The translations under genes were made by a program, and so were the position numbers. The notes under the pieces were generated by a model that was given only the letters and a program-made list of their open reading frames with translations, ran no database searches and was not told the DNA's origin. A DNA stretch of 64,000 nt from Limnephilus marmoratus (lineage: Eukaryota; Arthropoda; Insecta; Trichoptera; Limnephilidae): the NCBI GenBank assembly GCA_917880885.1, contig OU862910.1:20782710-20846709 (forward strand), given 5' to 3'. Every line of letters starts with the position of its first letter. The first letter of the stretch is position 1. Of this stretch, positions 7,009 to 62,893 are shown piece after piece.

Positions 7009-7137
7009 CTCGCACGGTCCATTAGCGCTGACAGGGCGGCTGCAGAACTCAATTTGGTGTTGAACACCATCTGGGTGAAGAGTACCAACGGTGAATATTC
7101 CAGCACACTCTTCCTGGGGGACTAACTTCATTGATGT
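7009..7137 (-). CDS. exon i: late protease segment before the Ser195 region
   Basis: The acceptor TTTCAG precedes ACATCAATG and the donor is GAG|GTATGT. It is 129 bp, phase 0 on both sides. It encodes [13 protein letters not shown], then EFCSR and GPCE. In active relatives these line up with the EEC...MICAG...DTCQ run that comes immediately before GDSGGP. The phase fits exon h directly (VYVK then TSMKLVP). No GDSGGP-like codon run was found on the minus strand in 1-7008, so the last exon lies outside the window or the motif has been lost. Confidence 0.8.

Positions 7138-62893: not shown

Follow-up and report, generated by a model that had tools for sequence, protein, structure and literature searches.

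The 64,000-nucleotide stretch of Limnephilus marmoratus chromosome 5 analysed here (the window) carries on its minus strand most of a real and intact 11-exon gene, whose predicted product is a 424-amino-acid clip-domain serine protease homologue consisting of a signal peptide, two clips, a Cys-rich linker and a chymotrypsin-fold domain. At least about 150 dispersed loci, most of them on chromosome 8, make up the family to which the gene belongs. We regard it as moderately probable that this is a family of diversifying pseudoproteases and that the product of the window gene would be secreted and act in extracellular protease cascades by binding, without catalysis.

Nine of the exons had been proposed in an initial annotation as a 56-kb gene with GT-AG borders, eight matching phases and one uninterrupted frame, and were recovered here without prior knowledge of these borders. 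The Asp102 exon at 33.5 kb, detected by tblastn with other protease loci, served as the starting point, and the remaining exons of this set were obtained by splice-site scoring with phase bookkeeping. All nine lie on the minus strand and are preceded by AG and followed by GT (9/9), the phase is kept at all eight junctions, and the joined frame remains open for 346 codons, in full agreement with the proposal. Together they amount to 1,040 bp or 1.86% of positions 7009-62893, as against the earlier estimate of about 1.9%. The proposed extent did not stand, as the first and the last coding exons had been missed: the complete model comprises 11 exons encoding 424 amino acids from Met to stop over a span of 70,478 bp (chromosome 5, positions 20,784,605-20,855,082; 1.8% coding), 62 kb of which are inside the window and the remainder past its end, and the ten introns range from 101 to 25,184 bp. 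A scan for the AAHC and GDSGG motifs gave no match in the window, and an exon-by-exon search of the L. marmoratus genome with Pfam CLIP and Trypsin returned none in the window among the matches listed, because the motifs are degenerate and the exons short. That the gene would be missed by ORF-based annotation, as had been pointed out earlier, is ordinary for an insect gene.

Exon 1, which encodes the signal peptide (MRFLLEIVFAVSMLRCVFG), lies 8.3 kb beyond the window (72373-72304 in window coordinates, minus strand). It was found via hydrophobicity and donor score and is conserved upstream of other copies of the family, and secretion of the product is predicted on this basis. Nine further copies of this exon with its flanks occur in the same genome at 91-96% identity. 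In four cases family exons follow on the same strand within 50 kb; in the other five none was seen at such a place. All other exons are likewise on the minus strand. Exon 2 (62790..62893; borders AG/GTGATC and CCTCAG/GTGAAG, phase 1 in and 0 out) begins within a split Gly codon, encodes C1-C3 as the first half of clip module 1 and has the same length in a second assembled copy, designated paralogue A. Exon 3 (56348..56408) provides the second half of this module (C4, C5C6) and ends at an in-phase donor, GAAG/GTACAG, that is conserved in paralogue A; a better-scoring donor at 56320 was rejected since it breaks the phase, and paralogue A has the in-phase donor. Exon 4 (56143..56246), the first half of clip module 2, equals exon 2 in length and phases, and the two modules align. 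Splice sites and paralogue A jointly define exon 5 (44931..45048; second half of module 2 and linker), exon 6 (41807..41952; Cys-rich linker ending in EAPYY, without an IVGG activation site), exon 7 (36517..36626; start of the protease-like domain with the 37-loop and His57 in the motif TSAHI), exon 8 (33500..33655; Asp102 region, also supported by tblastn with protease loci), exon 9 (32322..32433) and exon 10 (7009..7137). The terminal exon 11 (1896..2060), in which GFGLGSPLSLY occupies the place of GDSGGPL, runs to the stop codon TAA and was located by probing with the C-terminal parts of relatives from the databases and is supported by paralogue A. Directly behind the stop codon, a degenerate array of an approximately 91-bp repeat was observed (588-1891), which is in parts similar to the last portion of the terminal exon; paralogue A has a comparable stretch after its own terminal exon. 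Additional, partial copies of the first-half exon of clip module 2 were seen downstream of the real one, two of them in paralogue A, 147 bp apart (L028:2826-3049), and one as a 63-bp intronic remnant in the window (53074-53016).

Paralogue A (C8:25744001-25774000) contains the same ten exons (exons 2-11), every one of equal length, and its protein is 76% identical to that of the window gene over 400 codons with no indel. The pairwise omega of the two genes is 0.42 (bootstrap over codons 0.30-0.57), and separate values were obtained for the clips (0.34), the linker exon (0.13) and the protease-like domain (0.63). As paralogue A keeps lengths and frame, and as family exons recur in the genome with order and strand unchanged, the nine exons did not come together by chance, and the claim that they form one gene was borne out. 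An intact 11-exon gene is thus supported by its open frame, its splice sites, conservation in the paralogue and purifying selection.

The initial annotation had described the introns as filled with transposons, and such elements were found. The 25-kb intron harbours a Ty3-type retrotransposon gag-pol ORF (9725-13792, plus strand and hence antisense to the gene) with Pfam matches to RVT_1, RNase H, integrase and RVP; the intron after exon 4 contains a LINE-type reverse transcriptase ORF (53564-55612, minus strand; Pfam RVT_1, 1.8e-38), and a further intronic fragment matches RNase H/zf-RVT in Pfam (57741-58418, plus strand). Neither the gag-pol ORF nor the LINE-type ORF is part of the gene product. 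Two identical-looking open stretches of 90 codons (18376-18645 and 24833-25102) are probably a repeat within the large intron. The nine introns shared by both copies add up to 59.8 kb in the window gene versus 19.2 kb in paralogue A. Large, repeat-filled loci of this type are to be expected in L. marmoratus, for whose genome a repeat content of more than three-quarters is reported (PMC13045387), and a transposon load on caddisfly genes is described in general terms (PMC8881205; PMC13045387).

Joined from ten exons, the protein matched Pfam Trypsin with 63.8 bits (cut-off 20.6; E 2.6e-17), which upholds the chymotrypsin-fold domain named earlier, and the best solved relative of a two-copy profile was prophenoloxidase activating enzyme-I (2olg, 6.7e-10). 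The two CLIP domains also claimed for it could be retained on the basis of cysteine spacing and alignment, though not by the Pfam CLIP model: module 1 reached 13.0 of the 20 bits required and module 2 gave no score. The clip regions of three relatives likewise fell under this cut-off. The cysteines follow the order C-C-C-C-CC with a spacing of 10-5-15-9-0 in module 1 and 10-5-15-12-0 in module 2, compared with 9-5-15-9-0 in Timema and 8-5-15-9-0 in Mythimna; the Diploptera clip region is without the last cysteine. Alignments were made to clip regions of one Logan-derived protein and of proteins from Diploptera, Mythimna and Timema, and 1000 full and 1000 cysteine-fixed shuffles were scored in each of 16 comparisons; no more than 4 of the former and 22 of the latter reached the score. 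For the comparisons of the window gene's clips with the four relatives, the corresponding figures were at most 3 and at most 22 of 1000, and with module 1 no full shuffle out of 1000 reached the score against three of the four relatives and three did so against the fourth. A profile of the clip modules found no solved clip structure in the PDB. Two clip-type modules are therefore supported at the sequence level, by their cysteine spacing and their similarity to the clip regions of other proteases.

When aligned at the proline, the GFGLGSP of the window gene, which replaces GDSGGP, places Leu at the position of Ser195 and leaves no Asp194. His57 and Asp102 are present, Cys42 and Cys58 are replaced, and the complete protein contains no R/K-IVGG-like activation site, though other cleavage sites are possible. 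Given the Leu at 195, the missing Asp194 and IVGG site and the two replaced cysteines, the protease-like domain should not work as a protease. In trypsin-like zymogens, activation proceeds through a salt bridge between the new N-terminus and Asp194, and the joint loss of the IVGG-like site and of Asp194 suggests that the zymogen switch itself is gone. The catalytic degeneracy implied in the initial annotation is thus corroborated, but by the terminal exon that had been missed; its original basis was thinner than it seemed, because the nine exons alone keep His57 and Asp102 and the Ser195 position lies in exon 11.

The other copies of the family show the same tendency. The copies read were the best-scoring ones for the His57 exon and were hand-picked down the list for the terminal exon, so that the following counts do not describe a random sample, and sites 57 and 195 could be read together only in the window gene and paralogue A. 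Among 30 copies of the His57 exon, the residue at position 57 is Arg in 15, Tyr in 10, Pro in two and Gln and Ser in one each, the window gene being the only one with His; its His may be an ancestral state that was retained or may have arisen again from Arg or Tyr. At the Asp102 position, 12 copies of the respective exon have Asp (seven), Asn (four) or Ser (one). GDSGG is kept in none of 22 terminal exons (window gene, paralogue A and 20 others); 21 of them instead share the pattern aromatic, two residues, Gly, Ser/Ala/Asp, Pro, the exception being L082, which conforms to neither motif. The residue aligned with position 195 is Ser in 11 of the 22, including paralogue A, Thr in four, Tyr in three, Arg in two, Leu in the window gene and Phe in one. 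Inactivity of the 11 copies with Ser would consequently rest on the lost Asp194, the reshaped loop and, where it was read, residue 57.

A search of the L. marmoratus genome with the terminal exon yielded 320 candidates, and all 150 of those scored, the window gene included, matched at 50-100% identity; this number refers to loci with a terminal exon and not to assembled genes, of which there are two (window gene and paralogue A), the only copies in which both clip modules were seen complete. None of the 150 scored terminal exons (149 besides the window gene) contains a stop codon. Under a neutral simulation, 25-53% of single copies were stop-free at 55-80% identity, and the finding of 150 stop-free exons out of 150 is thus strong evidence for coding constraint. 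Distances between the scored exons all exceed 5 kb. Chromosome 8 carries 97 of these exons and chromosome 2 another 11, and the remainder are spread over 19 other chromosomes. Some copies share one score and may be recent segmental duplicates. With the His57 exon, 119 candidates were scored at a permissive E of 10, and 94 of them matched. In 66 of these 94, a terminal exon follows on the same strand at no more than 60 kb; in ten it is on the wrong side and in one on the wrong strand.

A profile search of 5.8 billion proteins retrieved 12 relatives, which are 25-31% identical where at least 40% of the query is covered, one of the 12 showing 38% identity over 22% coverage. Six were inspected, five of which have AAHC or AGHC together with GDSGG, the sixth being truncated after GDSG. 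The family is apparently lineage-specific, as judged from a protein database in which trichopteran proteomes may be sparse. No published account of this pseudoprotease family was found among the open-access papers listed by the literature searches.

Several further features of the genome were observed during these searches. Chromosomes 2 and 8 are reported to share much Hi-C signal, attributed in that account to shared repeats (PMC10509604). These two chromosomes also hold most of the scored family copies, and the family arrays may be part of the cause of the signal. Fourteen tandem copies of the linker exon (exon 6), none with a stop codon among the matches listed, are located at C29:28259158-28263204, six at a spacing of about 197 bp and eight at 389 bp. 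Their interpretation as alternative exons was rejected, since in a 1-kb piece (28260301-28261300) the tandemly repeated unit of 389 bp comprises the intron as well as the exon. A dense array of trypsin-type exons at C9:44.9-45.5 Mb, with more than 40 Pfam Trypsin matches listed, is apparently a separate protease expansion. A second COX1 match at C28:25770511-25771848, equal in score and length to that of contig C67, results either from an assembly artefact or from a recent transfer of mitochondrial DNA to the nucleus.

Comparison of the copies indicated that the loops of the dead active site appear to change unusually fast. In the His57 exon (24 of 29 unique copies, kept at 50% or more identity to the window gene), pN/pS was 1.64 by NG86 and only 0.12 in the core TLLSDRWLV; a one-ratio codon model gave an omega of 2.61 (F1X4) or 2.98 (F3X4), with a likelihood ratio against omega 1 of 30.9 under F3X4 and of 23.5 without the window copy. 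The adjoining linker exon, in contrast, had an omega of 0.39-0.44 in 19 copies (19 of 22 were kept for likelihood, three divergent ones being left out, and 21 of 22 for NG86). In the terminal exon (11 of 22 copies, the closest ones), loop columns 25-38, a loop picked after looking at the alignment, had an omega of 2.56 (ratio 4.0) versus 0.27 (ratio 15.4) outside the loop, while the exon as a whole gave 0.68, not different from 1 (ratio 2.8). For the Asp102 exon (9 of 12 copies aligned) pN/pS was 0.77. The tests for fast change span 36 and 14 codons, and the trees were built from the same short exons without a gene conversion model. Mapped by alignment to 2olg, the fast stretches correspond to the 37-loop, the surroundings of residue 57 and about 214-226, positions that, by standard chymotrypsin numbering, we take to lie on the rim of the old substrate cleft.

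These rates could also arise in a real family whose loops are fast through relaxed constraint combined with gene conversion, the dead domain being kept for its fold alone. The pN of the His57 exon (0.18, with a pS of 0.11) is barely above the divergence of the flanking introns (0.16 upstream and 0.11), which leaves room for relaxed constraint outside the core; the NG86 column bootstrap (0.98-2.78) includes 1, the omega of the whole terminal exon points the same way, and the exons are short. This explanation seems somewhat unlikely to us, however, in view of likelihood ratios of 23-31 in favour of omega above 1, of values of 2.6-3.0 under two codon-frequency models, of the strongly conserved core within the very same exon, and of a terminal exon in which pS is 0.16 in the loop as well as in the rest and pN is 0.27 and 0.04, respectively. 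That the window locus is a pseudogene, or a chance assembly of exon-like fragments from unrelated genes, is hardly credible: very long introns, transposon insertions and the lack of a close protein in the searched databases would be compatible with it, but the frame runs from Met to stop, the exon lengths are identical to those of paralogue A without indel at an omega of 0.42, and for 66 of 94 matches to the His57 exon a terminal exon follows on the same strand at a distance of up to 60 kb.

With respect to function, the gene might encode a conventional melanization cofactor of the SPHI/SPHII type, which is cut after the clip by a prophenoloxidase-activating protease, oligomerises and helps to activate prophenoloxidase; the architecture of a clip plus a non-catalytic protease-like domain is shared with this class as it is described in PMC10540698, and 2olg, the closest solved relative, is itself a prophenoloxidase activating enzyme. 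We nevertheless consider such a role distinctly unlikely, as the R/K-IVGG-like site that would be cut is absent between the clips and the protease-like domain and Asp194, the partner of the new N-terminus, has been lost. Five of the six relatives inspected are moreover active-type proteases and the sixth is truncated, none being of the SPHI/SPHII type, and Drosophila and Manduca have one to five such genes according to the same account, not about 150 (PMC10540698). A non-immune role in silk, cuticle, egg or seminal secretion, with sexual or ecological selection diversifying the copies, could draw on the silk of L. lunatus, which is reported to contain more than 80 proteins, two or more potential serine proteases being listed among the silk genes (PMC11092239). 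This too seems unlikely, since no tie between family copies and silk emerged in the present analysis. Clip domains, furthermore, are typical of haemolymph cascades.

For a secreted, non-catalytic binding protein, which remains our preferred explanation, the dead protease domain would be a binding head, the rim of which (37-loop, neighbourhood of His57 and the loop near 217-225) would meet other proteins, and the clip modules and the linker would be conserved for docking. The high omega of the His57 exon and of the terminal-exon loop, set against the low values of the linker exon and of the rest of the terminal exon, speaks for such a head. Within extracellular protease cascades, for example in melanization or Toll signalling, members of the family could then act as competitors or decoys or provide scaffolds, and the copies would diverge in the partners that they bind. 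We infer the binding role and the pathway, the immune role being taken from the wider family, in which clip-type pseudoproteases are described as melanization cofactors in moths, beetles and flies (PMC10540698). Since such proteins are cofactors in some insects and a wasp-venom homologue blocks melanization, the effect could be of either sign.

Among known systems, the insect cSPH (PPAF-II, Manduca SPH1/SPH2, Drosophila cSPH35/cSPH242 and mosquito CLIPA) likewise combine an N-terminal clip with a dead chymotrypsin-fold domain and predicted secretion, and the window gene has the six-Cys clip, the S1 fold, the missing triad residue and the predicted signal peptide by which they are defined. It differs from them in its two clips, the absence of an IVGG-like site, the loss of Asp194 and of Cys42/Cys58, and its membership in a group of at least about 150 loci. 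The set of His57, Asp102, Ser195 and GDSGG that marks an active clip protease is broken by GFGLGSP, and the R/K-IVGG-like motif at which SPHI/SPHII proteins are cleaved was not found. The active clip proteases of Diploptera, Mythimna and Timema rank with the best relatives in the databases and are 26-31% identical to the window protein over 55-100% of its length. They share with it the clip cysteine spacing, LG(F/Y)G, NDIAL and the ending PWIE..VW but, unlike it, contain a single clip, an AAHC or AGHC motif, GDSGG and a start with FPHMA. SMIPP-type pseudoproteases also constitute a multigene family of inactivated proteases and are reported to be complement inhibitors (PMC5553898). They belong to a parasite and act on its host. 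The likeness is one of mode and not of kinship. Presumably, they are of the gut-allergen type, without clip domains, and far fewer in copies than the caddisfly family. The Cotesia rubecula venom protein Vn50 is a clip-type homologue that blocks prophenoloxidase activation, for which the clip and the dead domain are both reported to be needed (PMC4553444); unlike the window protein, it has a single clip domain and is used against another species.

By itself, the window gene is a clip-domain pseudoprotease gene of the usual kind in a genome rich in repeats; the family to which it belongs is out of the ordinary. Only a few clip-type pseudoproteases are as a rule described per insect, compared with the at least about 150 related loci found here, and in the moth Plutella xylostella 13 clip genes are reported among 221 serine protease genes (PMC4676143). 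As a tentative extension, which we hold to be possible but not probable, the chromosome-8-centred set of at least 150 and perhaps 300 dead protease genes may be a germline-encoded variable binding repertoire, in which docking through clips and linker would stay constant and the former substrate-cleft loops would be diversified by selection for changing partners. These might be proteases and inhibitors of pathogens or parasites, or members of the insect's own melanization cascade. A large dead family with fast cleft loops would offer a natural test of what purpose a dead active site serves, and the Trichoptera, as the sister order of the Lepidoptera, would be a place in which to study the expansion of protease networks.
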